A stretch of 64,000 nt of DNA from Chrysogorgia sp. JL179-B06 (lineage: Eukaryota > Cnidaria > Anthozoa > Scleralcyonacea > Chrysogorgiidae): assembly GCA_035772405.1 (NCBI GenBank), contig JAYKKM010000056.1:542501-606500 (forward strand). Direction: 5' to 3'. Positions 1-55,165 of the stretch are shown here, in pieces. Positions within the stretch are counted from its first letter, which is position 1; each line of letters starts with the position of its first letter. Below the pieces are notes generated by a model that worked only from the letters and a program-made list of their open reading frames with translations, ran no database searches and was not told the origin of the DNA. Both the position numbers and the translations under genes were made by a program.

Positions 1-754
1 CAGTCTTCATTAGCGTGACGTGCTCGTATGATAGAGATCTACCGGATGCGTATAGAGATGATACTTCATCAGCGATCTCTTGACTCTCGATAGTTTCGTA
101 CTCCAATTCGAGGTTCTCCAACGTGTATCCAGCTACAGCTGATCCGGATTGAGCCACCATAATATCAGTTGCTTTGGGGAGTGTGATTATGTACCTGAGA
201 TTGTTGTTCATGTTATACGGTGCGTATAAACCGTGATCTTCTAGAATCTTGTCTAGTTGAATCTTTTGTTTGGTACCATGAATAGAGAACATCAGACCAT
301 CGCTAACTTTTTGTACGTTTCCACTGGCCGCGCCGCTGTCGTCCTTCGAGATTAACTTTCGAAGGTTCTCGTTTGCTAGGCCGTATTCAATCATAGCCGT
401 TCGCTCTGTTTTAGGTCTCCACAAATCTCTGTACGTACCGATAACACTCTCACCACAGTTGTCGTACACAGTCTCACCTGCTAGTTTTATAACCAGTTTT
501 TCAGAGAGTAGTCTCGAGAGGTTATTAAGAAACCATGATTTCGCGTTCGCACTTTTGAAGTCGAATAGGAGATGGAAACTGGAGGGTACCAAGCAAGTGT
601 TACCCTTTGTCTTTGGGATATCAATGTATAACTCCTCCTCTGGATTGGCTTTGTTAGGGTTCAGTGTCACAACGTGACGGGTCCTTGTGCCTTTGATAGC
701 AGATATTTCACGACGTCTATATCCGGGAAGCAACTCTTTCTCACTAGTATTCAT
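1..754 (-). CDS. Major capsid protein, double jelly-roll type (N-terminal part, runs off the window)
   Basis: An open frame begins at the ATG at 752-754 and stays open for 251 codons to base 1, so the gene is cut by the window edge. Residues near 40-75 (a stretch with IDIPKT followed by VPSSFHLLFDF), then the GGETVYD-like turn read here as AGETVYDNC, a TYRDLW stretch, and later TLENLELEYE match what I know of hexon-like capsid proteins in cnidarian Polintons. The role would be the main shell of the particle. Family members are usually more than twice this length, so the second jelly roll should lie to the left. It is the first gene of the leftward cluster. Its promoter-like motif lies in the 22 bp separating it from the next gene's stop. 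Assignment rests on pattern recognition, not a search. Confidence 0.78.
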   Translation of the reverse strand, partial: MNTSEKELLPGYRRREISAIKGTRTRHVVTLNPNKANPEEELYIDIPKTKGNTCLVPSSFHLLFDFKSANAKSWFLNNLSRLLSEKLVIKLAGETVYDNCGESVIGTYRDLWRPKTERTAMIEYGLANENLRKLISKDDSGAASGNVQKVSDGLMFSIHGTKQKIQLDKILEDHGLYAPYNMNNNLRYIITLPKATDIMVAQSGSAVAGYTLENLELEYETIESQEIADEVSSLYASGRSLSYEHVTLMKT

Positions 755-776
755 ACTATATATTATAACACGTGTT
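755..776 (-). promoter_or_regulatory. Putative viral promoter before the capsid gene
   Basis: On the minus strand this gap reads ACACGTGTTATAATATATAG just before the ATG. The ACACGTG core followed by a TATA-rich stretch recurs before the BRO gene at 7264-7284, and the TATA-rich part recurs before most genes of the element. Function is inferred from position and recurrence only. Confidence 0.45.
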
Positions 777-1577
777 TTATTTCCTCTGTTTGTACTGGTC
801 GTAGACGAACCAAGCTAGTGCTATCGCTAGGATCCACAAATTAGACGCTAACCAAGATATACCTGCAGCTCCCCACTTTAGCGCAGTTGCCACCACGTTT
901 AGCAGTCCAGCCAGTAGAGGGCCAGCCTTTGTGGCTAGGTTAGTTATAGCTTTTCCTAGTTTTCCAAGTGCTTGACCACCTTTGAAGACTACGCTTCTAG
1001 CGGATATTATAATCGTGGTGATGAAAGAGGCTATGGTTATTCCTAAAGCTGAAGCGCCTAACCAATTTTCTCTAAACCACTCCTTTATTTTTTGTAACCG
1101 AGTGAGGTCCTCTTCTTGTCGCTCCCTAACCTCCTCCACCTCTCTTTGATTAGTTGTTCTGTCTCTCGCTTCTCTTAAACCGTTGATTCTTACTTCTAGC
1201 TCACTTATTTTATCAACATCTTCAGTCGTATCTAATTGCTCTAGTGTTTTGTTTACTGTTTCTTGATAGTGATCTGCCTGAACTTGTAAAGCGCCGTCAT
1301 CACCAACTCTTGATTGTGGGTCTATAGTATTTGACGAGTTTACCACACCTTGTAGCTCACGGTTCTCGCTATCTGTTAGACCTCTTATTAGTGAGTCGTT
1401 AGGGGTTGTGTCAATCATCGGCTGTCCTCTACTTGTCTTGTTCCTTTCAACGATTCTACCGATAAGACTTAGGAACTGTGTCAGTGCGTTACCGTTTTTC
1501 TTTGTTCTGTTAATAGTTAAACTACCATCATCGTTTCGCTTTAAGACGATGTGTGGTATACCTCTCTCACTATTTTT
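777..1577 (-). CDS. Membrane/coiled-coil structural protein, C-terminal half (frame-broken)
   Basis: The frame is open from 1577 to the stop at 777; the only in-frame ATG with a long product is at 1418 (213 codons). From that ATG, residues 50-115 are charged and heptad-like (predicted coiled coil), followed by hydrophobic segments near residues 120-142 and 165-205 and a basic tail. No start or promoter motif precedes the frame. It begins right where the upstream gene (1570-2085) stops, inside a run of seven A on the coding strand (1573-1579). The simplest reading is one gene of about 1.3 kb with one extra A, or a shift site. A particle membrane or minor capsid role is inferred from neighbours (capsid, integrase); I do not recognise a named domain. 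Confidence 0.6.
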   Translation of the reverse strand, partial: KNSERGIPHIVLKRNDDGSLTINRTKKNGNALTQFLSLIGRIVERNKTSRGQPMIDTTPNDSLIRGLTDSENRELQGVVNSSNTIDPQSRVGDDGALQVQADHYQETVNKTLEQLDTTEDVDKISELEVRINGLREARDRTTNQREVEEVRERQEEDLTRLQKIKEWFRENWLGASALGITIASFITTIIISARSVVFKGGQALGKLGKAITNLATKAGPLLAGLLNVVATALKWGAAGISWLASNLWILAIALAWFVYDQYKQRK

Positions 1578-2085
1578 TTAAAACAGGTTTGTACTCAACA
1601 TTATTGGTCCCTTTCGTTATGCTTGAGTTTTTAACTAGCTCGAGTACATTATCGTCGTGCATATTAAGATCCACACTATACGTATCCCTCATAAATTTAC
1701 CCAAAGCCGTACGCAAGTCGTTTTCAGGGTGTTTAGGTATATCGGTGATTGGTAGGTTTTTAACTGAAGGAACCTTCATGACGTCACCACTACCCTTATT
1801 GATGATTGTCACCGTTTTTCCATCGTCATTGTCTATGAACGATGTCTCACTCTCCTTATATTGTTGTCTCCTAGTTATCTCTCTTTTTACCTCAGTTATC
1901 CTGTCACTAATTTTATCGTATTCGACACGGACTTTACTCGGCATACTCTCGTTAACGTACTTATCGCGAATATCAACACGATACTCAATAGTATCGGAAA
2001 GTTCATCGTCTAGTTCTTCGTCACTATACGATTTAAACTCGTCAATCTGTTTCATTTCGATTTCATCGAACCCTCCTTCAGCCAT
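1570..2085 (-). CDS. Structural protein, N-terminal half (frame-broken)
   Basis: This ORF of 171 codons starts at the ATG at 2085, preceded on the minus strand by GAGTAGTATATA. It is hydrophilic and acidic at the N-terminus (residues 1-40, many D/E), with a likely helical stretch at 45-75. It ends in LKK and TAG exactly at the A7 run at 1573-1579, while the next frame continues open to 777. I read it as the first part of the same gene. The function is unknown; position between capsid and integrase genes suggests a virion protein. The opposite-strand ORF here is a serine-rich shadow. Confidence 0.6.
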   Translation of the reverse strand: MAEGGFDEIEMKQIDEFKSYSDEELDDELSDTIEYRVDIRDKYVNESMPSKVRVEYDKISDRITEVKREITRRQQYKESETSFIDNDDGKTVTIINKGSGDVMKVPSVKNLPITDIPKHPENDLRTALGKFMRDTYSVDLNMHDDNVLELVKNSSITKGTNNVEYKPVLKK

Positions 2086-2091
2086 TATATA

Positions 2092-3171
2092 CTACTCAAT
2101 GTTTTGAATATCAATCTCTGGTATCCATGAGTTGTGTTTACTGTCATAGCCAAGCCACTTAACCAAAACCATCTTTTTACCCTTAACCTTCTTTCTCCTC
2201 ACTATCTTCTCAACTTTGTAAACGTCGTCTTTTTTATCGACAGCTGACAACTCTTCCTCGTAAAACTTACCGATGATGGGTTCCCCTTCATGGTCCTCTA
2301 TCTCGTACACGGTAGGGTCACCACGTATGACCTTTGTCACTTTGAATAGCTCCTCAGTGAAGTTAGCCTCATACCCTTTCGCAAACATGCTCTTGTACTT
2401 TGATATCCTGACAGTGTCACCTACTTTAAACTTTGGTAGTGGGTAGTCACCGAAATGGTACCCAAACAACGTCGTCCATACTTCGTTTTCGTTTTTCTTG
2501 CTAACGTCTTTAGGTTTCATTAGAATAGTACTATGTTTGGTATTGTTGTAATTCTCAACAAGCTGGTCTAGAATGTCAATCCACTTGTACGTTCCTTTAC
2601 TGTAGAAGTACTTCCACATAGACGTCTTGAGTGTTCTGTTAAACCGTTCCACGACTGCTGCCTTTTTATCAGAGTTCGTGCTGAAGTACTTAACATCGTG
2701 TTTATCCAATAGATCCTTCACACCAACGTTATAGAATTCCTTACCGTCGTCAAACTGAGCCAGCTTTGGGTACTCGCCAAATCTAACCTTAGCCTTCTCT
2801 AGTAACTTTGTGACAGCCTTAGTCATGTTTTTCGTGTCTTTCCTATAGACGGGTATTGCGAAAGCATACCTACTAAGGATCTCAGTGGCTGTTAGTATCC
2901 AGTAGTACCCGTTGTTCTTATGCTTGTACTTGCCCATATCAACCAAGTCCATCTGTATCTGCTCACCCAGATAGTCAACAAATGTTTGTCTAAACTTATG
3001 TTTCTTAACAACTGGTTTGTACCTGGTGTACGTGTCTTGAGATTTTAACCAGTCCTTTATCTTTACCCTACTAGCGTTTAGACCGCCTTCCTGCGCCTTT
3101 TGGTACAGCCTCTCGGCAGATTGGTAACCAGTTGATGGGTTGTAGTAAATATCTCTTAGTTCTTGCTCCAT
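2092..3171 (-). CDS. Polinton integrase: DDE core plus chromodomain
   Basis: The product inserts element DNA into the genome. The N-terminal 60 residues resemble the HTH/zinc-like head. The RVE core carries D (QMDLVDMG, about residue 75), D (FDDGKEF, about 141) and E (VVERFNR, about 175), giving a D-x33-E spacing as in retroviral-type integrases. A beta-rich linker (FKVGDTVRI) follows, then a chromodomain over the last 45 residues with YKVEKIV, VKWLGYD and SWIPE. The chromodomain would tether the enzyme to histone marks. The ATG at 3169-3171 is preferred; the frame opens 2 codons earlier with GTG. It lies 5 bp after the stop of the upstream gene, so the two are likely co-transcribed. The frame is intact. 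Confidence 0.92.
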   Translation of the reverse strand: MEQELRDIYYNPSTGYQSAERLYQKAQEGGLNASRVKIKDWLKSQDTYTRYKPVVKKHKFRQTFVDYLGEQIQMDLVDMGKYKHKNNGYYWILTATEILSRYAFAIPVYRKDTKNMTKAVTKLLEKAKVRFGEYPKLAQFDDGKEFYNVGVKDLLDKHDVKYFSTNSDKKAAVVERFNRTLKTSMWKYFYSKGTYKWIDILDQLVENYNNTKHSTILMKPKDVSKKNENEVWTTLFGYHFGDYPLPKFKVGDTVRISKYKSMFAKGYEANFTEELFKVTKVIRGDPTVYEIEDHEGEPIIGKFYEEELSAVDKKDDVYKVEKIVRRKKVKGKKMVLVKWLGYDSKHNSWIPEIDIQNIE

Positions 3172-3176
3172 ATACA

Positions 3177-3821
3177 CTACGTGATGTGTAAATCTAACAA
3201 CACCTCGCCAACGTTAACACTGTTATCGTCCTGATCTGTTATCTTGAACTCTAGTTGGTTGATGACTCCTTTGTTTATTGGGATTTTAGATCCAACACCA
3301 AAATGTTGTACAGAGCCCTTAAGTGTCTGTGTGCTAGTTATTGGCAGTACTGCGATACAACCACTTTTGCTACCATTAACTATGTTATTAGACCTGTCCA
3401 CAATATTAGATGTTACTTGTATGTATTTCAGTCCTCTGTTAACGTTCACAACGTTAGGACTGGTTTTTGTGGTGGTTATTGTAGTGTTTTCGTCAAACCC
3501 TAGAAGTTGTCCAAATTTAAACAGTTCTATTTGCTGATCAGTTGTTATAGTACACGTCGAGTCATATCTGTTAGCCACTAGCTTGACGTCTCCTAACTCT
3601 CTCAAGTCGTCGGCAATCGTTTTAAAGGTGTGGTATCCAGGACTAAAAACGTGGTTGTTACTGTTATAAGTTATCTTGTTGTTAGCTGTGGTTACGTTAA
3701 CGTAGTTCCAAAAGATGGTTGCCTTCTCCACTAGTAAGTGAGGGTCTGAGTTAGTTGCTAGAGTTGACTCTGGTAGGTCTATAGTTTTCGTTGAACCACT
3801 AATCAATACTACCACTCTCAT
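3177..3821 (-). CDS. Small jelly-roll-like capsid/penton candidate
   Basis: This is a 214-residue, beta-rich protein with few charged runs and no membrane segment. It starts at the ATG at 3819-3821. Visible stretches include SPGYHTFKTIADDL (about 60-75), VNVNRGLKYIQVTSNIVD (about 128-145) and a C-terminal KITDQDDNSVNVGE motif. The same kind of protein, with a TDQ-x-NPVDxG-like ending, accompanies capsid genes in cnidarian Polintons as far as I recall, where it is taken as a minor capsid or penton-type protein. That function is inferred from context. The gene is divergent from the 3839 gene across only 17 bp and nearly touches the integrase gene. The frame is intact. Confidence 0.5.
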   Translation of the reverse strand: MRVVVLISGSTKTIDLPESTLATNSDPHLLVEKATIFWNYVNVTTANNKITYNSNNHVFSPGYHTFKTIADDLRELGDVKLVANRYDSTCTITTDQQIELFKFGQLLGFDENTTITTTKTSPNVVNVNRGLKYIQVTSNIVDRSNNIVNGSKSGCIAVLPITSTQTLKGSVQHFGVGSKIPINKGVINQLEFKITDQDDNSVNVGEVLLDLHIT

Positions 3822-3838
3822 ATAACGTACGGTATGTT
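3822..3838. promoter_or_regulatory. 17-bp divergent promoter region
   Basis: This gap separates the ATGs of two divergent genes and reads ATAACGTACGGTATGTT. Both strands contain a GTACG core near an ATG and a short A/T tract. It is the switch point between the leftward and rightward clusters, so any promoter elements must be very compact or lie inside the coding ends. Confidence 0.45.
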
Positions 3839-5569
3839 ATGATGGATGCGTTCAAAATAAAGTATCCTTATGCTGACAAGAATAGGTTTTTTCTTGACGT
3901 TGACGACAATATGCATATGCATATATTCTTCGTGACGAAAACTAATATTGGTGACGTTTCGATAGACTCGAGTAGGTTTAAGAGTAACCCTGTGTACACC
4001 AAGTATCTAACGATAAACAAACCAATAATACCTGACCAGGAAGAGATAGCTAATGCCATACGCGTGGCTAAGCTGAATCTAGTTAAAAAGTACCCTCACA
4101 TCACTTTGAGTAAGTTTGAGTTCGATCCAACTGTCTCACAAGACGGTGAGGTTAATGGCGTTGACATATATTTTAGAAACAACGACATCATAAGCACTAA
4201 CATAACTAGTGATACCTTCAAAAACGACAAGAGTATGTGGATTTGGTTACACAACAACAAGTCTCCAAAAGGTCACGACGATAAGTTTCCAAAAATATGG
4301 CTATCTGGTGGAACTATCCAACCACTATCAAAAGGTCGCAAGAACCACTGGGGACTTTGGGATGGCTATCCAACGGAAAACGTGTTGAACTACTCAGTGA
4401 ATAACTTTAGAGTCTTCGTTAATCAGAAGAACTACTTTCTCTCAAAGTTACCAATATTACAAATCACCACGTCAAAGACAAAGTCAAAGTGGGACGATAA
4501 TGAGAGCTACTATAGGGTAGTGTTTGCAACGTATTGTGCGAGTTTCTGTTGTGGAGTGTCGTTACAACACTTGTCACCATCGCAAGAAGTTCACCCTGTT
4601 ATCACGAGTGTAATGAGGTTTCATCTGTACTTTACTGTTAGAAGACTTCTCAGAAGGATGGAAGGTGGTGAGAGTATGAGATCGATAAGTAGAGAGTTTG
4701 ACGCTGGAGAATTGTATGGTAAGACAGACAAGATTCCTAGAAAACATTACTACCAAGGTAAAGTCCTTGCTGATGGTACAACAGGTGAGGAGAGAGTCTT
4801 CACGATTAACGACGTTAAGAACGACTACAAACGATACGTTCCTCTGGTATCGAATGGTTTTACCAACATTGGGCGACAATACCTAAATCAGTCCATAGAA
4901 GCCTTTGTTTACTCCACACTTGGTGCACAAGCGAGAACACGTGTGTCAGTCGTTGGTGATTCTGCAGGCAGTCTAGAGACTCAACAAGAGTTCCGAAAGT
5001 TGGTGGAGGATAGTGTTATAAACTACGACGTGTCAACGTGGATTCTCAACATGAACAAGTCGATTAGGGACACTAACGTTGTCCAAAACCTTGCGCTGTC
5101 ACCGTCTACGTGGTTAATGCCAAGTAACGTTGTAATCCTAAAGAACAAAATCGCTGGGTACAACAACCTATTGAAGACTGCTACACAGAGTATGAAGTTT
5201 GGGGTAAACACTGGGTTAAACCACGCGAGAACGACTGAGGTTAAGAAAGTACACCAAGAAGGTGGAGAGCACCTGGAGACACTTGACAAACCAAAGGTGA
5301 CGAATCGTCTGGTGACATCAAACGTGGCACACCAGGAAGGTGGAGAGCATCTGGAGACACTCGACAAACCAAAGGTGACGAATCGTCTGGTGACATCAAA
5401 CGTGGCACACCAGGAAGGTGGAGAGCATCTGGAGACACTTGACAAACCAAAGGTGACACATCAAGAACGTCGTCTAGAAGTGACACCAGGTGACAACACG
5501 ACAGAGTTGTGGCTAGTCTTAGGGGTCTCGGCTGCGTCTGGCTATTTAGTAAGTAAATATATGTTATAA
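3839..5569 (+). CDS. Large late protein with 26-residue repeats and C-terminal membrane anchor (unknown)
   Basis: The product is 576 residues; two tandem ATGs (3839, 3842) could start it. I do not recognise a domain. Residues 1-250 look like a mixed alpha/beta domain. Residues about 470-540 consist of 2.7 copies of a 26-residue unit beginning HQEGGEHLETLDKPKV (78-bp DNA repeat at 5252-5461). The last 20 residues, after ELWLVLGVSAASGYL, form one hydrophobic segment, so it is probably a C-terminally anchored membrane or virion protein. It is the first gene of the rightward set, 4 bp before the fibre-like gene, which suggests a virion component. Confidence 0.75.
   Translation: MMDAFKIKYPYADKNRFFLDVDDNMHMHIFFVTKTNIGDVSIDSSRFKSNPVYTKYLTINKPIIPDQEEIANAIRVAKLNLVKKYPHITLSKFEFDPTVSQDGEVNGVDIYFRNNDIISTNITSDTFKNDKSMWIWLHNNKSPKGHDDKFPKIWLSGGTIQPLSKGRKNHWGLWDGYPTENVLNYSVNNFRVFVNQKNYFLSKLPILQITTSKTKSKWDDNESYYRVVFATYCASFCCGVSLQHLSPSQEVHPVITSVMRFHLYFTVRRLLRRMEGGESMRSISREFDAGELYGKTDKIPRKHYYQGKVLADGTTGEERVFTINDVKNDYKRYVPLVSNGFTNIGRQYLNQSIEAFVYSTLGAQARTRVSVVGDSAGSLETQQEFRKLVEDSVINYDVSTWILNMNKSIRDTNVVQNLALSPSTWLMPSNVVILKNKIAGYNNLLKTATQSMKFGVNTGLNHARTTEVKKVHQEGGEHLETLDKPKVTNRLVTSNVAHQEGGEHLETLDKPKVTNRLVTSNVAHQEGGEHLETLDKPKVTHQERRLEVTPGDNTTELWLVLGVSAASGYLVSKYML
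5252..5461 (+). repeat. 78-bp in-frame tandem repeat, 2.7 copies
   Basis: Units start at 5252, 5330 and 5408 with a period of exactly 78 bp (26 codons). Copies two and three are almost identical in DNA, which points to recent duplication or ongoing exchange. They lie just before the membrane segment and would form a stalk-like spacer. Confidence 0.9.
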
Positions 5570-5573
5570 CATA

Positions 5574-6527
5574 ATGAGTCTAAGTTATGGATTTGAGGAC
5601 AGAGACTATGAGAGTGACAAAATATTAAGAAGAGCGAAGAGACATCTAGACAGTGACCCTAAGTTAAGCGTTAGCGGTGGGAGGATGTCTGGGAATATAG
5701 ATATGGCGTTCAGGGCACTCAAAAACGTAGCAGATCCAGAAGACGATTGGGATGCTATCAATAAAAAAGTGTTGGAGTCTGTATACTTATCACAATACTT
5801 TAGAACGCAGTCCTATAACGTTCTATTTGACTTTAACGTCACAAACCATGCTGTGAGTATGGTGGAATACCACAGTGGAACAAATAAAGTGAAAACCATT
5901 AGAGATAAAACGAACATGTTAGTTCAATACGATCCAACGTATGGTCCTATTATTGGTGTTAACAACGGTCATAGCTTCCTATCCCCTGAGCTAACTCCAA
6001 TTCCGTTTGAAGCTGGAGTGCATTTTAACTGTCCACGTATGCAATACTGTGACATATCCGTTTTTATGGTAGTGAGGTTAGCCATGAGGGTAAATACGAA
6101 AGATTGGGAGGCGATTATCTCAAACGATGATGGATCGTGGGACAAATACATAGGATACAAAGGAGGTGAAAATGATAAATTATCATACGGTGGTGGCTCT
6201 CCAGTAAGGGAGTACACGTGTACAATCCCAAATAACATCGACACCACCAAGAGACATATGATATCAATACATTGGCGGATGGGTAACTCCTACGTTAAGG
6301 TGAACAACATAAGATCAACAGACTCAGACTTCACAGCTAATCATGAAGAGATAGGGTCTCCTTACGTAACGATCTTTGGAGTTCATCGACCAAGAGTACC
6401 ACTCTCGCCCTACAAGTACCCGTCTATGATAGAGTTCTACGGTGTGAGGGTTGTCTCTGGCTACATGACGAGCCGAGACATAATATTAGTTGGTATAGAT
6501 ATGATGAGGGAATATGATGTGAGCTAA
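5574..6527 (+). CDS. Fibre-like/receptor-binding candidate
   Basis: The product is 317 residues, ATG at 5574, 4 bp after the previous stop. Residues about 31-67 contain SVSGGRMSGNIDMAFRALK followed by a D-PEDDWDAINKK stretch. This is the layout seen in phage and viral fibre shafts, where a GGxMxGxIDM-type repeat connects shaft and head. From about residue 75 the protein is beta-rich, with alternating hydrophobics compatible with a concanavalin/laminin-G-like head that would bind host surfaces. No signal peptide or membrane segment is seen. Its position between the anchored protein and the SLATT-like gene supports a particle role. The fibre call is strong for the shaft motif and inferred for the head. 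Confidence 0.6.
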   Translation: MSLSYGFEDRDYESDKILRRAKRHLDSDPKLSVSGGRMSGNIDMAFRALKNVADPEDDWDAINKKVLESVYLSQYFRTQSYNVLFDFNVTNHAVSMVEYHSGTNKVKTIRDKTNMLVQYDPTYGPIIGVNNGHSFLSPELTPIPFEAGVHFNCPRMQYCDISVFMVVRLAMRVNTKDWEAIISNDDGSWDKYIGYKGGENDKLSYGGGSPVREYTCTIPNNIDTTKRHMISIHWRMGNSYVKVNNIRSTDSDFTANHEEIGSPYVTIFGVHRPRVPLSPYKYPSMIEFYGVRVVSGYMTSRDIILVGIDMMREYDVS

Positions 6528-6532
6528 TATAT

Positions 6533-7033
6533 ATGAGGAAGAAGTCAGTTGTTGTTTTCAATCACATATCAAAGGATATGTCAGAGGAAGAGGTGCTAGA
6601 GCTCAAACGCTTGTACGCGTACTACCACAAACTAGAAGCCTGTTACAAATGGAAATACAAGAGGTTGAAGAAAGTTAAACTATCGTTAAACATGACTAGC
6701 ATAGGGTTAACGACAGTAGGTATTGTAGCTGGATCGATAACCGCTAACCCTCTAATCATTGCTTGTATTAGTGGTCCTGGTGTGATCATCCAAGGCTACT
6801 TGGCTAAATCCAATCTGACGAGTAGAGTGGAGCATTGCAAGTTTGCGCACACTAGCTACAAAAAGATATTGACACAACTAAGATCGTATCTTAGAGGTCT
6901 TCCTTACAATGAGTCAATGTTCCTCTCAGACGTTAAAGTATTGGACGATAATGTGACTGACTTATGCCCACCAATCAACGGAATGGTGAAAAGGTACAAT
7001 AAAGTATATGACGAGACCAACGTTCCAAAATAG
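6533..7033 (+). CDS. Two-TM, SLATT-like membrane protein
   Basis: The product is 166 residues, ATG at 6533 preceded by CTAATATAT. A basic helix (residues 25-48, KWKYKRLKKVK) leads into two adjacent hydrophobic segments (about 50-70 and 72-90) and a long C-terminal helix. This topology, two TMs flanked by long helices, is that of SLATT/DUF4231-type proteins, which in bacteria act as membrane effectors. The family link is a topology-level guess. The gene ends the first rightward block and is followed by a strong hairpin at 7112-7144. Confidence 0.5.
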   Translation: MRKKSVVVFNHISKDMSEEEVLELKRLYAYYHKLEACYKWKYKRLKKVKLSLNMTSIGLTTVGIVAGSITANPLIIACISGPGVIIQGYLAKSNLTSRVEHCKFAHTSYKKILTQLRSYLRGLPYNESMFLSDVKVLDDNVTDLCPPINGMVKRYNKVYDETNVPK

Positions 7034-7111
7034 GGTAAGACACAAGGGGTGAGTCACACACGGTCGGTCTACATATCAGAACCAGGAGTGTGTTCCACAT
7101 GAAAGACGACA

Positions 7112-7144
7112 AAAACTCAGGTCCCGCTTTGGGACCTGAGTTTT
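7112..7144. terminator. Perfect 14-bp hairpin after the late gene block
   Basis: AAAACTCAGGTCCC (7112-7125) pairs perfectly with 7131-7144 across a 5-base loop GCTTT. It lies 78 bp after the stop of the SLATT-like gene and before the BRO gene. In mimiviruses, hairpins of this kind set mRNA 3' ends; the same role here is inferred. Confidence 0.5.
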
Positions 7145-7164
7145 CGAGTGTCAAAACAGACTAG

Positions 7165-7199
7165 TCTGACCAACACCTCAAAATGGGACCTTGGTCAGA
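7165..7199. repeat. 9-bp inverted repeat TCTGACCAA/TTGGTCAGA
   Basis: Arms at 7165-7173 and 7191-7199 enclose 17 bases that repeat the word GGGACC of the hairpin just upstream. It could be a second 3'-end structure or a protein-binding site in the 250-bp non-coding gap 7034-7284. Confidence 0.4.
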
Positions 7200-7263
7200 T
7201 CACGTGTTCGTGCTATTAAGTGGTTACTCTCTTAAGACGACTGCTATTTAAACACAAAATAAA

Positions 7264-7284
7264 ACACGTGGTACATTATAGGTG
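7264..7284 (+). promoter_or_regulatory. Putative viral promoter before the BRO-nuclease gene
   Basis: It reads ACACGTGGTACATTATAGG shortly before the ATG at 7285 and shares ACACGTG plus a TATA-like stretch with the capsid promoter region. Confidence 0.4.
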
Positions 7285-8088
7285 ATGAGTATCACTAAAA
7301 TATTTAAAAATAACGACATGTCTGTCACGACTATTAAAGATGGAGACAATATTTGGTTCTATGGAAAAGAAGTCGCTAAGGCATTAGGGTATAAAAACGC
7401 GAAGTGGGCTATCAGCGTACACGTTGACGATACATATAAGGTCAAACGAGAGGTGTTTGAAGGGGGGCGCGAATCACGCCCCCCTTTAAACTTACAACCA
7501 AACACGATATTAATATCGGAGCCAGGAGTTTACGCTCTAGTCTTCTCATCGAAACTCGAGTCAGCAAGAAAGTTCCAAAAATGGGTATTCACAGAAGTCC
7601 TACCATCTATTAGAAAGACGGGACAGTACACACAACATAACCAACTATCGATTATGAATGAGACAGATTTACACTACGACATTGTGAAGTACATTAGAGA
7701 GTACCATCCAACAATAGTCATCCCAGGGTTGGGTGAGTACCAAGACACATCTACTAAAAGAATAGATGGGTGGAAGAAAGGTTACAGTGGTGGACAACCA
7801 GACTTGATAGTTCCACAACTACACAAGAGATACAATGGTTTTGCTATAGAGTTCAAAACACCGAAAGGTAGTGGGGTTATTAGGAATAACCAGTTGAGGG
7901 TATTGAGGAGACTAAGATCACAAGGGTACAACACGTTACTATCCTCAGACCAACATGAGATAATACATTTCATAGAAACATATATGATAGACTCTAGAGT
8001 TCTGTGCGAGTACTGCAATAGAAGATTTAAGAGTGAAACCACACTGTCTAATCACCAAAAATACTTTCACCGAATACTCTATCTGTGA
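7285..8088 (+). CDS. BRO-N / VRR-NUC nuclease / C2H2 zinc-finger fusion
   Basis: The ATG at 7285 is preferred over the GTG at 7282; product 267 residues. Residues 1-112 form a BRO-N domain (IWFYGKEVAKALGY, then VHVDD and an ISEPGVYALVFSS stretch), a DNA-binding module common in large DNA viruses and phages. Residues about 125-235 form a VRR-NUC/PD-(D/E)XK nuclease with D173 (QPDLIV), E189 and K191 (AIEFKTP) and Q203. The C-terminus has a zinc finger with C241, C244, H257 and H262. A structure-guided DNA nuclease in replication or recombination is the likely role. All expected catalytic residues are present and the frame is intact, unlike the polymerase gene. Confidence 0.85.
   Translation: MSITKIFKNNDMSVTTIKDGDNIWFYGKEVAKALGYKNAKWAISVHVDDTYKVKREVFEGGRESRPPLNLQPNTILISEPGVYALVFSSKLESARKFQKWVFTEVLPSIRKTGQYTQHNQLSIMNETDLHYDIVKYIREYHPTIVIPGLGEYQDTSTKRIDGWKKGYSGGQPDLIVPQLHKRYNGFAIEFKTPKGSGVIRNNQLRVLRRLRSQGYNTLLSSDQHEIIHFIETYMIDSRVLCEYCNRRFKSETTLSNHQKYFHRILYL
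7460..7486 (+). other. GC-rich hairpin inside the BRO-N coding region
   Basis: AAGGGGGGCG (7460-7469) pairs with CGCCCCCCTT (7477-7486) across a 7-base loop. It contains a G6 and a C6 run in an otherwise A/T-rich gene and encodes the EGGRESRPP segment. It may be chance or a regulatory RNA structure. Confidence 0.5.
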
Positions 8089-8099
8089 GATAATCTGTG

Positions 8100-8119
8100 A
8101 GATGACTGTGAGGTCATCT
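8100..8119. terminator. Short hairpin after the BRO gene
   Basis: AGATGAC and GTCATCT (7 bp) flank a 6-base loop, starting 12 bp after the stop at 8088. It resembles in position the hairpin after 7033, though it is weaker. Confidence 0.3.
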
Positions 8120-8132
8120 GTAACAAGACACC

Positions 8133-8146
8133 ACGTATAGTATAAG
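8133..8146 (+). promoter_or_regulatory. Putative promoter ACGTATAGTATAAG before 8147
   Basis: The motif abuts the ATG. It is one of the cleanest copies of the recurring GTATA-x-TATA signal. Confidence 0.45.
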
Positions 8147-8440
8147 ATGACTGACAGTGAGTCCGTACCTATTATAACGTCTACAACAAGGGTTAAAGAC
8201 CCTAAGAGAGTAGAGGCAGGCAAACGCTTGGCTGCTATATCTAAAGCAGCCAAAGAGAGGAAGATGAGAGAGAGAGTCACAAGTGAGGACGATAGTTTTA
8301 ACTACGGATACATCATAGGTACTATTGGAGTGGTAATAGCCGCTGGCTCACTGTACTACACGATTAGTCAAGACAAACAAGTAGTGGAGCCTAAGACCGT
8401 TGTTATAAAACCATCACGTAAACTCGACAGCCTCGATTAA
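8147..8440 (+). CDS. Small basic single-TM protein
   Basis: The product is 97 residues. Residues 18-45 are strongly basic (KRVEAGKRLAAISKAAKERK) and residues about 53-70 are hydrophobic (YGYIIGTIGVVIAAGSLYY), followed by a short polar tail. It is a likely type II or tail-embedded membrane protein. I recall similar small genes in cnidarian Polintons but know no function. It is the first of four small genes in tandem, each with its own promoter-like motif. Confidence 0.7.
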   Translation: MTDSESVPIITSTTRVKDPKRVEAGKRLAAISKAAKERKMRERVTSEDDSFNYGYIIGTIGVVIAAGSLYYTISQDKQVVEPKTVVIKPSRKLDSLD

Positions 8441-8442
8441 AA

Positions 8443-8457
8443 CATGTCGTATAATAT
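8443..8457 (+). promoter_or_regulatory. Putative promoter CATGTCGTATAATAT before 8458
   Basis: It abuts the ATG and fills most of the 17-bp gap after the previous stop, as expected if each gene has its own short promoter. Confidence 0.45.
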
Positions 8458-8691
8458 ATGGCATCAATAGACAGAAAAGAACTGATGAACGAGCTATACG
8501 ACGCAGCCCTCGTGACTGCTGGAGCCGTAGCCGTATCCATGGCATCAAAGAAAGTACTAAAAGAACCGTTAGGCACTCCCGAATCAGTGAAGGGCACCCT
8601 CAAGTTAGCGACTGCTGTAGGCGTTTCGACGCTACTCGTTAAGTGGGCGCAGAGCAAGAAATACTTACCTATTGACCCGTTCTCGAAATAA
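8458..8691 (+). CDS. Small alanine-rich membrane protein
   Basis: The product is 77 residues with two weakly hydrophobic, small-residue-rich stretches (about 16-30, ALVTAGAVAVSMA; about 47-62, LKLATAVGVSTLLVKWA) and a polar C-terminus ending DPFSK. A virion or envelope-associated peptide is possible. No named family is recognised. The frame is intact. Confidence 0.7.
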   Translation: MASIDRKELMNELYDAALVTAGAVAVSMASKKVLKEPLGTPESVKGTLKLATAVGVSTLLVKWAQSKKYLPIDPFSK

Positions 8692-8707
8692 CACAGCGTA
8701 ATATATA
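8691..8707 (+). promoter_or_regulatory. Putative promoter ACACAGCGTAATATATA before 8708
   Basis: It spans the whole gap between the TAA at 8689-8691 and the ATG at 8708. Confidence 0.45.
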
Positions 8708-9124
8708 ATGGCTAGTGCGGTAGCAGGTGGGTTGTTCAACGCCATAGCATTCGCAGGAGCTGGGTTTCTATTCAGCAAGCTAAACCATACAGGTTACGAG
8801 ACAGAGATAAAGAGACACAACAAAGCATTGGAGAGTCTTGCAAGAGCTAAAGAAAAGTTCTATGAGAACGAGATTCGTCAGAGAGATAAAGTCCAGGAAT
8901 TAAGACAACAGTTGTCAGACGCTAATGCAGACATAAACGACACGAACCACGCTCTGGATCAACTAAGACAAGTACTTACGATACAGTATGATGGGAAGAC
9001 ATTTAGTAAAGAGCCTGAGTTGTCAGACTATTACAAACCCTCGGACGAGATGAAAGAATACCAAACAGTATTCGTTGGAGTCGTTGGACTACCTTTAGGT
9101 TACTTAATATATAGAGTGTTATAG
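8708..9124 (+). CDS. Coiled-coil protein with N- and C-terminal hydrophobic ends
   Basis: The product is 138 residues. An N-terminal glycine/alanine-rich hydrophobic segment (3-24) is followed by a long charged coiled coil (about 30-90, EIKRHNKALESLARAKEKF) and a C-terminal hydrophobic stretch (about 121-138). The pattern suggests a membrane-spanning scaffold or fusion-like rod. The function is unknown. It is 2 bp from the next ATG, which lacks a full promoter motif and may be translated from the same mRNA. Confidence 0.7.
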   Translation: MASAVAGGLFNAIAFAGAGFLFSKLNHTGYETEIKRHNKALESLARAKEKFYENEIRQRDKVQELRQQLSDANADINDTNHALDQLRQVLTIQYDGKTFSKEPELSDYYKPSDEMKEYQTVFVGVVGLPLGYLIYRVL

Positions 9125-9126
9125 AA

Positions 9127-9312
9127 ATGAGCACTAAAACTTTGAAGGAGATGGCTATGGAATTCGATAAAAAGCGTAACTTGACAGATACACTCTCTTA
9201 CCAAACTCGTCAGATAGAAGAGTTGGAACAACTACTATCAGACGCTCTAAAACAGGTCATAACAATAAAGTGTGAGTTGGAGACACTCAACAACAAAATT
9301 ACTATACTATAG
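9127..9312 (+). CDS. Short coiled-coil protein
   Basis: The product is 61 residues, almost entirely heptad-like (QIEELEQLLSDALKQV). It may pair with the upstream coiled-coil protein. The ATG is 2 bp after the previous stop. No known family. Confidence 0.6.
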   Translation: MSTKTLKEMAMEFDKKRNLTDTLSYQTRQIEELEQLLSDALKQVITIKCELETLNNKITIL

Positions 9313-9322
9313 TCTAAAGACA

Positions 9323-9336
9323 CATATAGTATAGTA
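9323..9336 (+). promoter_or_regulatory. Putative promoter CATATAGTATAGTA before 9343
   Basis: This lies just before the VLTF3-like gene and nearly matches the signals before 9982 (CATATAGTATTATATA) and 10254 (CCTATAGTATATAG). Confidence 0.45.
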
Positions 9337-9342
9337 ACTTAG

Positions 9343-9963
9343 ATGGTTGACGAACGTACAATGAGAATGTTCTATGCTGGGTATACATTAGATGAGATTG
9401 CATCAAAAAAGTGGAGTGGTACTACATTAGGGTATACATTGGACGAGATCAAGAACGGAAGTAAGCACGCAACACCGAAAAAGTGGCACGACACCACGTA
9501 CTGTTATGAGTGTAGTAACCACAGAACCCAAATCGAAGATGGTGTATTTAGTTGTAACAAGTGTGGAGAGACTACTTACGGACGCGTGAGAAACTTTGTA
9601 CCTAACATTTGGATGTACAAGAAATCGACTCATAGTTATAGTAAGTGGCTAGATAGAATGTTGACTGGACTAGTTAGCGAGAGTGACATACCAACAGTTG
9701 TCAATGATTTTATAGAGATAGTATGGTCTCTTAAAAGAAACAAACTGATTGTCAAGAACATATCGAAATATATTTTCTATGTCATAAGAATATGCTCTAG
9801 AAGAGGTATAGAGTTGAGAGGTAGTCTTAACGACCTCAAACCTGGTAAGGTTAAGGTACGATTCGAGTATAACCTGTATAGCGTAGTATACAAGGATCTA
9901 GGTTGGGATGGGAGAGGAGATCCATACTACAACGAGTGGATCAGAAAAGGTCTAGAGAAATAA
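9343..9963 (+). CDS. VLTF3-like late transcription factor (probable)
   Basis: The product is 206 residues. A zinc ribbon is formed by C54, C57, C71 and C74 (YCYECSNH and FSCNKCGE), followed by an aromatic/basic helix (SYSKWLDRML) and a helical C-terminal domain with R/K-rich turns. This order matches poxvirus-type VLTF3 factors found in many nucleocytoplasmic viruses and some Polinton-like viruses. The N-terminus has a 51-bp direct duplication (9379 and 9430) giving GYTLDEI twice. Its likely job is to switch on late viral genes at the recurring short motif. Family membership is probable, not proven; other zinc-ribbon proteins are possible. Confidence 0.55.
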   Translation: MVDERTMRMFYAGYTLDEIASKKWSGTTLGYTLDEIKNGSKHATPKKWHDTTYCYECSNHRTQIEDGVFSCNKCGETTYGRVRNFVPNIWMYKKSTHSYSKWLDRMLTGLVSESDIPTVVNDFIEIVWSLKRNKLIVKNISKYIFYVIRICSRRGIELRGSLNDLKPGKVKVRFEYNLYSVVYKDLGWDGRGDPYYNEWIRKGLEK

Positions 9964-9964
9964 A

Positions 9965-9981
9965 ACATATAGTATTATATA
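9965..9981 (+). promoter_or_regulatory. Putative promoter CATATAGTATTATATA before 9982
   Basis: It abuts the ATG of a 59-codon gene and supports that short ORF being real. Confidence 0.45.
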
Positions 9982-10161
9982 ATGGGAAGACCTAGAATTT
10001 ACCAAACCAAAGAAGAAGCTTTAAGAGCAGCAAGAGCGCAAACTAAAGTGTGGATGAACACTCACAAATGGGTGTGTGAGACATGCGATAGGCCATACCA
10101 TGTGACCTCTAAATATAAACACCTAAAGACCAAAAAGCATTTGAGAAATTTGGAAGCGTGA
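9982..10161 (+). CDS. 59-residue zinc-finger protein
   Basis: This short ORF begins at the ATG at 9982 and stops at 10159-10161. The N-terminal half is basic and helical; the C-terminal half has CETCDRPYHV and KYKHLKTKKH, a C-x2-C ... H-x5-H arrangement like the U1-type C2H2 finger. It would bind nucleic acid. The promoter-like motif directly before the ATG and its place between VLTF3-like and polymerase genes make it a likely real gene. No function is known. Confidence 0.6.
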   Translation: MGRPRIYQTKEEALRAARAQTKVWMNTHKWVCETCDRPYHVTSKYKHLKTKKHLRNLEA

Positions 10162-10227
10162 TTACATTGTACTAGTATAGTAAATTATAAAACGACTCTT
10201 TTTAGGTAAGGGTCTAAAGAAATAAAA

Positions 10228-10245
10228 CATATCCTATAGTATATA
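10228..10245 (+). promoter_or_regulatory. Putative promoter before the polymerase gene
   Basis: It reads CATATCCTATAGTATATA, 8 bp before the ATG at 10254, with the same TATAGTATA core as the preceding genes. Confidence 0.45.
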
Positions 10246-10253
10246 GACATAAC

Positions 10254-13200
10254 ATGTCAAGTAGGATGGAAGAAACGACACATCCTGAAAACATAATGGA
10301 TAAACCAATTCCACACGGACTCGAAGAACCTGTAATGACACCTACACCTGCACCTCCCACACCAAGAAGAAGTGTGAGAGAGCGTATGACTTTGTTCAAG
10401 GAGTCTCTCAAAACTTTCAAAAAGAAGATGAGTCAATGGAACGAGTGGATCGTAGACCACATACCAGAACCCATTAAGAAACACACAACAAGTGCTTTCA
10501 ACTTGTTCAAAGAAAAGATAGACTCTATGTTTAGAGAAACTATACCACGAAAGAGTGAGACCTCACTTAGGGGTTTCTCAAACAACTTTGAGATTAACGC
10601 TGGGACAAACACAGAACCAAAGGTGTTCCTAGAACAGTCAAAAGTTGTTGTGTTAGACCTTTGGAAGAAACAGATGAAAAAAGGAATTAAGACCAAGTTA
10701 ATTCTGGATTGTGTGATGGTTCGCACAGCGAACGACGAAGAGGTTGAAGCTGAGGCACACTTTCACACTCTCACAAAGATTATACTACCTGGCACAAACT
10801 CTGAAGAGACGTACAACGAGATGGTTGAGAAAATGTTAGAGAGCTTCTCTACATACTTGACTAGAGGAAGTAACTGGAGACTTCTTCGTGTTGTGAGACT
10901 AACCATTCACATCGACAAGTACACACCAATGTCTGGGAGCTCCCACATTCCTACACCACAAGCACTAGTTCACAAAAAAAGCCATCGTAAACGTTAGAAA
11001 CAAAAAGGACGATATGTGTTTCAAGTGGTCTGTAACTGTTGCTAAAACGTCACTTGAAGAGAAAAACCAAGAAAGACTAAGTAAGAAACTCAAAGAAGCT
11101 TCGACGAATTACAATTGGACCGAGGTTAGGTTTCCAACACCACTAGAGGACATTAAGAAATTTTCAAAAAATAACAAGATAGGAATAAACGTATTTGGTT
11201 ACGATGAGGGTGAGGTGTACCCTCTTCTTATCCAAGGAAACTCTAGAGACATCATTAACTTGCTTTACATCAAGAATGAGACAACATCTCATTACGTCTG
11301 GATCAAGAACATGAGTAGACTCATGTCAAGTAAGAATAACAACCACCAACACGAGATTCACTATTGTTATAGATGTCTAAATAGCTTCAAGAATACTAAG
11401 TCACTAGAAAAGCACGACGAATACTGTTCAGACGTTAATAGTATTAAAACTATAATGCCGGAAAAAGGTAAAGATGACAAACTAACTTTCACAAACAACC
11501 ACAAAACACAAGACGTGCCATTTGTGATCTACGCTGATTTTGAGTCGTTCATCGAGAAGATTGAAGGATGTGAGAACAAACCAAACAGTAGTTTTACCAA
11601 CAAATACCAACACCATACACCATCAGGATGGACCTTCCACCTAAAATGTAGTGATGACAAACTATACTGGGAGGAGCCAGTAAGTAGAACTAAGAAGAAC
11701 CAGGAAGACGACCTGACCAAGTCGTTCGTAGAAGAGATAGAGAAAGCTGCGCGTAGAGCGTACAAGAGATTCAAGGTGATAATACCAATGAACCTAAGCT
11801 CTGAGGAGACGGAAATTTTCGAGAATAGCACAAAGTGCTGGATTTGTGAAAAAGATTCTCCCTACCCTGAAGACTACGTAGTCAGAGACCATTGTCACAT
11901 GACAGGAAAATTCAGAGGAGCTGCACACACGTCGTGTAATCTAAAATACAAATTACCAAAATTTATTCCTGTTATTTTCCACAACTTGTCTGGATACGAC
12001 GCTCACTTGTTCATCAAAAGCCTAGGTGGAGACATAAACTGTATTCCATGTAACGAGGAGAAATACGTCTCCTTCAGTAAAAATATTGTGGTGGACCACT
12101 ACACTGATAAGACTGGTAAAGAAAAACCTATCACCAGAGAAATTAGATTCTTAGACAGTTTTAAGTTCATGGCTTCTAGTCTAGATAGACTAGCAAAGAA
12201 CTTGTCTAAAGACCAGTTAGTATCCACAAGAAAACAGTTCGAAAAAGACGAAGATTTCGAGCTAGTTTCCAAGAAAGGTGTCTACCCATACGAGTACATG
12301 GATCAGATAGAGAAACTAAAAGAGGAAAAATTACCTCCTAAAGAAGAGTTCTACTCGAAACTGACTGACACAGACATCAGCGACGAGGACTATGAGCACG
12401 CCCAAAAAGTTTGGAAAAACTTTGGAATGAAAACCATGAAGGATTACCACGACCTCTACCTGTTGACAGATGTGTTGTTGTTGGAGGATGTGTTCGAGAA
12501 CTTCAGGTCTGTTTGTACGAAAAATTACGGACTAGACCCTGCATGGTATTACACATCTCCAGGGCTATCATGGGACGCACTACTAAAAACAACAAAAGTA
12601 GAACTAGAGTTGTTGACCGATATTGACATGTTGTTGATGATAGAGAGAGGTATCAGAGGAGGAGTCTCCACCATCACAAAAAGACACGCCCAAGCCAACA
12701 ACAAACATATGGGGTACACAAAAACACCAGAGTCAGAACCACGAGCAAAACACGATCCTACCAAACCTAGCGTGTACTTACCATACCTTGACGCAAACAA
12801 CCTCTACGGATGTGCTATGAATATGAAATTACCTATGGGAGATTTCAAGTGGATGAACAGTGCACAACTAAAGAACTGGAAGAAAACACCTTGTATTCTA
12901 GAAGTTGACCTAGAATACCCTAAGAAACTTCACGATGCTCATAACGATTATCCTCTAGCCCCAGAGAGGTTGATAATTAACGGAGTGGAAAAGCTAGTCC
13001 CTAACTTGATGAACAAGAACAAATACGTTATTCACCGTAAGAACCTTAAGATGTATCTTAAATATGGAATGAAGTTAACAAAAATTCATAGAGGGATTAC
13101 TTTCAGAGAGGGAGCTTGGATGAAGAAGTACATAGATCTTAACACACAACTGAGAACAAAGGCTACGAACAGTTTCGAGAAAGATTTCTTCAAGATGATG

Positions 13201-13971
13201 AACAACTCAGTGTTTGGAAAAAACTATGGAAAACATCAGGAACAGGGTAGACATCAAGTTAGTGACGAACGAAAAGAAAATGAATAAGTTTGTTTCCAAG
13301 CCAAATTACAGTCATCGCGCAATCTTTAGCGAGAACCTAATAGCAGTACACATGAAGAGAACAAAAGTGAAATTCTACAAACCTGTATACCTTGGGATGA
13401 GTATCTTAGACTTGAGTAAGACTGTAATGTACGAGTTTCACTACGAATACATTAAACCTAAATATGGGGATGCTGCTAAGTTATTGTTCACCGACACTGA
13501 CAGTCTAATGTACGAGATACACACCGACGACTTTTACGAAGACATCTCAAATGACGTTAGAGAGAGGTTCGACACCTCTGAGTACTCTAAGGACCACCCC
13601 TCCTGTATTCCAACAGGTTTGAATAAAAAGGTTGTAGGTCTATTCAAGGACGAGAATAATGGAGAGCAAGTCCTAGAGTTTGTTGGTCTAAGAGCCAAGC
13701 TGTACGCATGTAAGACTAACAACTCAGAGCAGAGGAAATGTAAGCTAGATCAATAACATTAGCTAGATCAATAACATTTGAAAACTATAAAGAGTGCTTG
13801 TTCTCCGGAGAGACACAGATGAGAAGTATGAATACTTTTAGAAGTAGGAAACACGAAATTTACACAGAGACGGTCAACAAGATAGCACTAAGTAGTAACG
13901 ACGACAAGCGGTACATCCTACCCGACAAGGTAAACACTCTGGCGTTGGGGCATCACCTCATCGCGGAATAG
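10254..13971 (+). pseudogene. polB: Protein-primed family B DNA polymerase, broken by three frame changes
   Basis: The polymerase copies the linear element using a protein primer. From 5' to 3': a 245-codon N-terminal region; a C2H2-like finger near 11363-11425; ExoI (ADFESF, about 11530); an Endo VII-like cluster with CWIC and DHCHMTGKFRGAAH (11836-11945); ExoII (HNLSGYDAH, about 11980); ExoIII (DLYLLTD, about 12450); motif A (YLDANNLYG, about 12785); motif B (MNNSVFGK, about 13198); motif C (FTDTDSLMY, about 13485). The frame moves +1 at an A7 run (10974-10980) and again at an A6 run inside motif B (13218-13223). It shifts back near 13743 beside an 18-bp tandem duplication, then stays open to TAG at 13971. 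The copy is inactive as read unless the shifts are errors or are bypassed. Confidence 0.9.
13743..13778 (+). repeat. 18-bp tandem duplication in the 3' end of polB
   Basis: AGCTAGATCAATAACATT occurs twice back to back (13743-13760 and 13761-13778). The length keeps the frame, but a one-base loss just before it moves translation into a stop within the duplication. Confidence 0.9.
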
Positions 13972-14101
13972 GGTATACGCACCACCACCAGGACCCGTCT
14001 GACTCGAACCTCCACCCGAACCCACCAAGCCAAGCCTGACTGCATGTCGTTGCTACAGAACGTGAATCACATCGCGCAATAATTCCTGGAGTCTAACTCG
14101 A

Positions 14102-14205
14102 CCACACCCTGATTTTAAAAAACTTGACCACGCCCTTTTTCAAGGCATCTCGACCACGCCCTTTTCTAAGGCATCTCGGCCACGCCCTTTCTCTCAAGGA
14201 ATTCT
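14102..14205 (+). repeat. 26-bp subterminal repeats with CCACGCCC
   Basis: CCACACCC at 14102 and CCACGCCC at 14128, 14154 and 14180 are exactly 26 bp apart, with CTTTTC-AAGGCATCTCG-like spacers. The reverse word GGGCGTGG recurs in the terminal palindrome. The word resembles KLF/EGR-type binding sites. A role in replication or transcription is inferred. Confidence 0.8.
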
Positions 14206-14232
14206 TGGAATTATTTCTCGAGATAATTCTTG

Positions 14233-14315
14233 GAACTTGACCTTGAAACTTGACCTCGACCTTGACCTTGAAACTTGACCTTGACCTTGAAACTCGACCT
14301 TGACCTTGACCTTGA
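14233..14315 (+). repeat. TTGACC hexamer array
   Basis: About ten TTGACC-like units separated by occasional AAAC fill this stretch. TGACCTTGA, which appears about six times, is the form of an extended nuclear-receptor half-site. It lies between the 26-bp repeats and the terminal palindrome. Confidence 0.8.
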
Positions 14316-14316
14316 C

Positions 14317-14446
14317 AGTAGTAGTAAAAGGCCTATTCTAACTCACAACCAGTTAGATTATTTAGTGGGCGTGGCCAAAGCTTTGGCTACGCCCACTAAA
14401 GGGTCTAACTGCGGGGGTGAGTTAGAATCGGCCTTTTACTACTACT
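14317..14446. repeat. 130-bp near-perfect terminal palindrome of the virus
   Basis: The outer arms 14317-14346 and 14417-14446 (starting AGTAGTAGTAAAAGGCC) match with one mismatch in 30. The inner arms around TTAGTGGGCGTGGCCAAAG meet without a loop at 14380/14381. I take 14446 as the right end of the element. The end can fold as a hairpin, unusual for a protein-primed linear element. It could also be a separate foldback element that landed at the end. Confidence 0.75.
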
Positions 14447-14593
14447 TTGGCAGTTTAGCACCTTTTCACTTTGTTATATATTCAAAATACTGTCTACGCA
14501 GCACTCTACTCTCGGATATCAATTGATTAATTGTGTGAATTTTAAAAATAAATTAAAACTACAATATAATATTTCAATTTCAAATATATTTAC

Positions 14594-45909: not shown

Positions 45910-47011
45910 TAAGGTAATTTCGCTGTTCCAAAGAGGTGCATTTTTTTCGAGCTCAGTCGTCTCCAATTCGGTCATTATAGGTTGCTTCCAGCCTCCCCCC
46001 CAGAGGTGCATCAATCCAGTACGCACCTCCCTGCATGGGTGTTTTTATAAAATCCAACCGAGCTGCACTTCGATTAGATTTTAATCACATTAGATTATAG
46101 AAATTCTGAATCTTCCTATTTGTAAAGTGAACTTATAGTATGTGACAGATTTGGAAAACCATCAACAACAGTTGCGACAATTGCCACAGCACGGACTTTC
46201 TCTCCTGTGACATCTTTAACAGATACAGTTTGGGTTCAGCCATGTCAATATCTGCAACAAAAGATTTAAATTCAATAATAATCCTCACATGATTTTTTTG
46301 TGAAAAACATGGCGTAATAACATCTTGATCTATAAAAAATTAGATAGGAAGTAATGTAACAAATCAGACTGCAGCAAACATTTCATCTGTTTTCTATAAT
46401 TATTATAATTTATACATTTACTATTATTACTACATCTACTGTATTTATGACATAATATGTATGTACAATAATTGTGTATTAACAATAATATTAACTTTAT
46501 CATTTGAAACGATTGTGGGAAGGATTTCAATAATATATCATTAGTATAGCCCCATCCAACCCCTAGCTTATTATGGCCCTATGTAATGATAATAAAAAGG
46601 TTTACCAAAGTATTTGCCAACACCACTGTTGCTACACCTTTCAGCCATCTTTCTTGAATGTTCATATTTTTTCAGGACATTCTTCATGACATTGATGATA
46701 GCATGTATTGACTCTGTATACACATCTTCCCGGAACTCAATAAACAAAATTGACCATGCAAGGAGAATACCTTATAAACATTAATGTTTTAATAACTATA
46801 TTTAACATTTGAATAAAAATTTTAAAACATTATCCTGTATCAGTTTCTTAAGCAAAGACAAAGAGTTTGTATTTTTAAACAAAATAATAGACTCACATGT
46901 ATTTTTAAACAAAATAATAGACTCACACAAGACAATCCTGAAAAATCAATATTGAAGTTATAGCTTCTTAACATGGTTTAGTTACAAAAAATTGTATATA
47001 GATGAGAAACA
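45910..47011. other. Non-coding stretch with a 31-bp tandem duplication
   Basis: No gene seen. TATTTTTAAACAAAATAATA followed by GACTCACA is duplicated in tandem near 46871-46930. Confidence 0.5.
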
Positions 47012-54976: not shown

Positions 54977-55060
54977 ATATATTCGTTCTACCTTTATGGT
55001 ATTGAGCACTTTCAACGTTCCGTGAACAACATCACATTCCTTTTGTATATATATATATTT

Positions 55061-55165
55061 AGCAATTATACCATGAGCTCAAGTCGTATATGAGCTGATA
55101 GCCGACGAGGCGAAGCCGAGTTGGCTATCGGCTCATATACGGTGAGAGCGAATGGTATAATTGCT
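55061..55165. repeat. 105-bp double-stem palindrome
   Basis: The outer stem AGCAATTATACCAT (55061-55074 with 55152-55165) is perfect. The inner stem CGTATATGAGCTGATAGCC (55085-55103 with 55123-55141) has one mismatch. The tip contains GGCGAAGCC. It directly abuts the left inverted repeat of the Crypton-bearing element. Confidence 0.85.

Follow-up and report, generated by a model that had tools for sequence, protein, structure and literature searches.

As far as the portions of the literature available to us describe them, Polinton/Maverick elements (PMC4028283) carry a double-jelly-roll capsid, an ATPase, an rve integrase, a polymerase, terminal repeats and a 6-bp target-site duplication, all of which recur at the locus analysed here. 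An adenovirus-like protease is given for 74% of Polintons (PMC4028283), whereas here no protease was found, the penton is a candidate and the capsid is unrecognised by sequence. Adintoviruses are defined by an N-terminal OTU-like polymerase domain, a BLASTp-recognisable hexon and an rve integrase with a C-terminal chromodomain (PMC11071296). Chimeras between Polintons and large viruses are also known from the accessible text of that paper; in these 'meldviruses', for example Meld23486, a Polinton-type polymerase and an rve integrase are joined to virion proteins like those of large DNA viruses, as at our locus. Exchange of replication and capsid modules has been described for virophages (PMC8547959) and algal polinton-like viruses (PMC12220804). 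In the EMALE endogenous virophages, which likewise carry an rve integrase, probable recombination between EMALE01 and EMALE02 exchanged morphogenesis genes; the available part of that account infers a single such event, in a protist, whereas here there are two replicons and two inner cassettes in many copies. The cryptophyte polinton-like viruses also resemble our element in their rve-INT with 6-bp duplications and in a polymerase replaced relative to the capsid phylogeny, an exchange inferred from phylogeny there and from junctions between near-identical copies here. OmPLV of Oxyrrhis marina (PMC12721341) shares a Bro-N-VRR-NUC fusion, an A32 ATPase and the failure to find a protease, but has a tyrosine recombinase instead of an rve integrase, and, within the accessible text, a C2H2 finger is mentioned for our protein only. 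What is new at our locus is that exchange is resolved among near-identical copies in one genome, with polymerase and ends switching together, and that the element has covarying terminal palindromes. The locus bears on whether endogenous animal Polintons are dead transposons or live, mixing viruses.

The window, by which we mean the whole stretch of 64,000 bp analysed, is C56:542501-606500 of a genome of 781 Mb in 522 contigs. One integrated copy of a large, virus-like Polinton-type DNA element spans 16,907 bp (C56:540040-556946): its first 2,461 bases precede the window, and the remaining 85% lie inside it (1-14446). Its right terminal inverted repeat, of the kind that we call type A, lies at 14128-14446 and matches the left one, which was found 2,461 bases beyond the window, at 91.6% over 322 columns. 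Both repeats are flanked by the duplication ttggca (right copy at 14447-14452), so that the right end proposed in the first-pass annotation, 14446, is exact. The 6-bp duplication was resolved in 8 of 10 copies examined, in one of them as a run of A. The sequence to the left of the window holds the remainder of the capsid gene, a packaging ATPase (Pox_A32, E 9.2e-17, Walker A present), a 177-aa gene and a 112-aa gene; the ATPase and the left repeat were thus recovered where that annotation had suggested looking for them. The adenovirus-like protease sought at the same time gave no match in the element ORFs scanned, and one further search was silent in its controls too. With an rve integrase, terminal inverted repeats and 6-bp duplication, double-jelly-roll capsid and packaging ATPase, the window element is a real Polinton-type provirus, and the finding is not due to chance, since the capsid, the integrase, two polymerases and the 576-aa protein (ORF576) each have many close copies in the genome. 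The ORFs are packed as first described, but they do not all run head to tail; instead they form two arms, on the minus strand up to 3821 and on the plus strand from 3839.

The minus-strand arm enters the window with the first 251 of the 412 residues of the double-jelly-roll major capsid protein (2-754, minus), the remainder lying to the left; the first-pass annotation was right to read a capsid here, and the ORF that it named is one part of the gene. Among the best 101 of 4045 candidate copies of this gene in the genome, amino acid identity was 98-100% and a stop was present in 4 of 101. Next to it is a broken membrane-protein gene, of which the C-terminal piece (777-1418, minus) has two hydrophobic segments and lies in an exchangeable cassette, and the N-terminal piece is at 1570-2085 (minus). 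The two pieces form one 435-aa ORF in four of seven other copies with a 4-kb piece (L002, L003, L005 and L008), and in L069 and L070 both parts stand in one ORF that runs off the piece. The gene is broken in L007 as well, and the search motifs gave no match for it in L004, L006, L071 and L072. The integrase gene (2092-3171, minus) is intact and encodes 359 aa with the predicted chromodomain (rve E 3.5e-8, above the cut-off; Chromo E 3.9e-11); the best 113 of 5597 candidate copies were 96-100% identical at the amino acid level, with a stop in 1 of 113. The arm ends with a 214-aa protein (3177-3821, minus) that is part of the conserved integrase block; it gave no sequence match in the PDB, and we take it to be a penton candidate.

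The plus-strand arm opens with ORF576 (3839-5569, plus), a conserved 576-aa protein that contains repeats and is predicted to have a helix at its C terminus; it is exchangeable from about position 4024 onward, and 46 relatives of it were found. Its predicted model has a confident helical core (pLDDT 73.6 overall), and comparison of the fold of this model found no match. The database protein P0022 is a piece of this family fused to a protein similar to a Bro-N/VRR-NUC-like one. A 317-aa protein follows (5574-6527, plus), and the fibre-like label given to it earlier comes down to a weak N-terminal PHROG match (E 0.0016, 40 residues). After a 166-aa protein with one hydrophobic segment (6533-7033, plus) comes a 267-aa protein (7285-8088, plus) that combines Bro-N (E 2.3e-25), a VRR-NUC-like part (E 1e-4, just under the Pfam cut-off; Holliday-junction-resolvase PHROG E 1.2e-7) and a C2H2 finger matched weakly, below the cut-off. 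Five small genes without assigned role (8147-8440, 8458-8691, 8708-9124, 9127-9312 and 9343-9963, plus), two of them with hydrophobic segments, lead to a 59-aa Cys/His protein (9982-10161, plus).

The polymerase gene is broken into three pieces in the window copy, which is thus a mutated one with the membrane-protein gene in two: an N-terminal piece (10254-10997, plus), a middle piece with exonuclease motifs, an endonuclease VII-like part and motifs A and B (11014-13287, plus) and, in another frame, a C-terminal piece with motif C (13226-13756, plus). Its six ordered exonuclease and polymerase motifs presumably mark a family-B-like, protein-primed polymerase. The protein-primed polymerase called earlier is a putative one, read from the ordered motifs of a gene spread over three ORFs; searches of Pfam, PHROGs and the PDB returned the endonuclease VII-like part, weak unrelated models or nothing, and no polymerase-family match. 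Intact copies exist in the genome: among the best 59 of 5015 candidate places for this type A polymerase, 40 have a frame of at least 1,200 aa, 2 of these 40 with a counted stop, and a counted stop occurs in 6 of the 60 rows listed. A second, type B polymerase was represented by the best 36 of 6035 candidates, 95-100% identical and with a stop in 4 of 36; its dN/dS had a median of 0.165 (55 pairs, 11 sequences, some partial). Types A and B are mostly about 45% identical over the main part (34.7-54.8% depending on the stretch aligned; 22-27% for the N-terminal piece), with dS saturated and dN 0.53.

The element might also be read as an ordinary adintovirus copy with nothing else notable about it, and the integrase with chromodomain, the polymerase, the size and the repeats fit such a reading; an rve integrase with a C-terminal chromodomain is indeed one of the features named for adintoviruses (PMC11071296). 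The capsid, which was identified by its fold, found giant-virus capsids first in a viral fold library, with an adintovirus capsid protein 6th, and among solved structures giant-virus capsids are nearer to it than the adenovirus hexon. With Pfam at E 0.1, neither an intact type B polymerase nor the polymerase pieces of the window matched an OTU domain, and the missing protease match and the mosaic structure of the copies described below tell in the same direction. We consider this reading unlikely: of the earlier 'Polinton/adintovirus' designation the first half holds, and the second is not established. A Polinton-type polymerase (by motifs) and an integrase accompany virion proteins like those of large DNA viruses, and in this the element resembles the 'meldvirus' chimeras of PMC11071296.

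Comparison of the copies revealed two kinds of element around one core. Among 20 right-end pieces, taken as the best integrase matches, the window-type polymerase was present in one (C276, 98%), the other polymerase in 18 and none in the piece from C265; the type B polymerase sits on the strand opposite to type A. Similarity to the window ends at 10148, in the last codons of the 59-aa gene, in six right-end pieces and at 10041 in a seventh. On the other side, the leftmost gene has its start codon at L009:6771, and outward of this point 19 of 20 left ends no longer resemble the window; C276 alone stays similar into the window's repeat. The resolved type B terminal repeats are about 450 bp long and share with type A the tip AGTAGT, outside which blastn gave no match. 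Two replicons, each made up of a polymerase, its own pair of terminal repeats and a leftmost small gene, carry a near-identical capsid, integrase and ATPase-adjacent gene, and the module junctions coincide with gene edges; the 4.7-10.1 kb part of the type B copies was seen in pieces only. Since the A and B versions of the leftmost gene look like remote relatives, the outer parts are probably related stretches that have diverged from each other.

Repeats present in many near-identical copies are difficult for assemblers, and mosaics of this kind could be chimeras made by the assembly between repeated copies. The same junctions, however, recur across many contigs, repeats and duplication fit the copy's own site in the 8 of 10 copies mentioned above, and orientation follows a rule: a listed integrase lies near 12 of 59 type A polymerase places, divergent from the polymerase in all 12, and near 22 of 36 type B places, in the same orientation in all 22. 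Assembly error is accordingly a very improbable source of the mosaics. ORF576 (best 76 of 3889 candidates, 96-100% aa; stops in 1 of 77 rows) was near a listed type A polymerase at 10 of 76 places and near type B at 17; for the capsid (98-100% aa) the counts were 16 and 15 of 101. Listed integrases were lacking at 47 of 59 type A and 14 of 36 type B places, and listed polymerases at 49 of 76 ORF576 and 70 of 101 capsid places; these linkage frequencies are lower bounds, because the lists are best-scored subsets of the candidates.

Two old lineages whose capsid and integrase were kept similar by purifying selection, without any exchange, would also yield a shared core, and the low dN/dS of the integrase (0.07-0.13, window against 11 copies) agrees with this. 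Synonymous sites are near-identical too: integrase dS was 0.05-0.09 between the window and the seven closest copies compared (five type B, one type A, one without polymerase in its piece), and its value against the type A mate C276 (0.054) is within the spread of the values obtained for the five type B copies (0.049-0.091). Saturated polymerase dS beside integrase dS of 0.05-0.09 argues against selection as the cause of the core similarity, and at the shared junctions similarity is lost over just a few bases, which leaves two separate lineages with hardly any credibility.

Inner genes have been exchanged as well. In the element at C275:5158905-5175923 the type A polymerase is 99%, the type A ends 98% and the integrase 93% identical to the window, against 64% for ORF576 (first 143 residues) and 34% for the membrane gene. 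The same identity steps, near window positions 2030 and 4024, were found in C370 and C80; C3 has the step near 2030, and its piece ends near 4024. Within the piece 594-4671, identity drops in the membrane gene only in L004 and L006 (45-76%, 150-bp bins) and beyond 4195 only in L007 (30-42%), the profile showing steps between neighbouring bins and no gradients. These patterns give at least three combinations of ends and inner genes, and the 435-aa membrane gene and the 576-aa gene switch separately.

Purifying selection acts on both integrase and polymerase, as judged by dN/dS, and both repeats were complete in 9 of 20 copies, where their mutual identity ranges from 100% (C34, 445 bp) to 83% (C213). 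Repeat pairs of up to 100% identity together with low dN/dS indicate that the family has been under selection and that some copies were recently active, and near-identical copies with common capsid and integrase but different polymerase and ends point to recent co-replication and genetic exchange. We therefore favour, with a probability of roughly 0.8, a recently active Polinton-type provirus family in a probable animal genome, known here from its DNA, that exists as a recombining pool. Elements of different types would have replicated together in one cell and exchanged blocks through homologous recombination or template switching. Polymerase and terminal repeats may move as a unit, since protein priming requires a polymerase to recognise the ends that belong to it, and the shared integrase may accept both end types since both begin AGTAGT. 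The cycle would run from protein-primed copying through packaging by the A32-type ATPase into the double-jelly-roll capsid to insertion that leaves a 6-bp duplication. The joint switching of polymerase and terminal repeats is a natural experiment as to which origin each polymerase reads.

The last 130 bp of the element (14317-14446) form a palindrome with covarying arms. As single-stranded DNA it folds at -54.2 kcal/mol against a shuffle mean of -14.0 (z -14.4). Fifteen further type A tips, one end per copy, were added for covariation (17 rows, 16 distinct): 97.8% of cells pair over 57 pairs, and both sides have changed in 7 pairs and 24 cells. None of 500 shuffles reached the cell count or the score, 11 reached the pair count and 247 the number of pair types; a sliding-partner control gave 30-46% paired, with both-side changes in at most 3 pairs and 7 cells. 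Because the structure was taken from the window's own fold and related rows inflate the scores, we also relied on the independent type B palindrome. Type B tips, unlike type A in sequence, fold too (z -9.0 and -6.8), six type B left tips, two of them identical, giving -26 to -33.5 against about -8 for simple shuffles; self-complementarity is 71-78% in type B and 84-96% in the 17 type A tips. A narrow literature search, covering its sources in part, found no description of terminal palindromes in Polintons. The palindromes may form hairpins or cruciforms recognised by polymerase or integrase, with their arms kept complementary, although conversion instead of function could also have kept the arms; with this covariation they are a testable structural feature of the ends.

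Near-perfect 130-bp palindromes at both ends with covarying arms recall the hairpins of parvovirus-like rolling-hairpin replication. Such copying should invert the tip (flip/flop). A search of the genome for tips found 40 places, of which 4 are unpaired and the others make 18 pairs 16.7-22.6 kb apart, and all 36 paired tips are in one orientation; this single orientation, with no tip inversion, argues against rolling-hairpin replication, which we regard as improbable. Returning to the recombining pool, we tentatively consider, as a possible though doubtful extension, that exchange is built in as in phages. Replicon cassettes, made of polymerase and hairpin-ended repeats, and surface or membrane cassettes would be swapped among co-replicating proviruses at fixed gene edges, and the Bro-N-VRR-C2H2 protein of the element itself, as a resolvase-like nuclease, would help by acting on hairpins or cruciforms. 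The hairpin at the ends would then be a conserved structural origin that keeps its shape when its sequence changes along with the polymerase.

Several further features were observed beside these. The flanks of the type B insertions L039/L058, L042/L061, L044/L063 and L046/L026 match each other directly or are tandem repeats, a pattern suggestive of integration in satellite-like DNA, a target that a chromodomain integrase might prefer. At C190:938743-988235 (L074), ten integrase copies stand about 5,380 bp apart in a tandem array. The repeated unit extends from within the ATPase gene (L009:7726) across capsid and integrase to a break in the 576-aa gene (window 4485); the 2.6-kb piece that was read shows the join, with no ends and no polymerase, and the array is probably a host-level tandem amplification.

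Outside the element, an ORF at 16167-16649 (minus) resembles what we take to be a THAP-type zinc finger. A long nested inverted repeat (51762-54955, arms 94-100%) has ORFs on both strands, one of which we presume to be a reverse-transcriptase fragment. Seven pairs of inverted-repeat arms at 47002-63121 (each 61-159 bp, 89-97% matched, together covering a span of about 760 bp) are about 14.6 kb apart and resemble the terminal repeats that a second large element, poor in long ORFs, would have.
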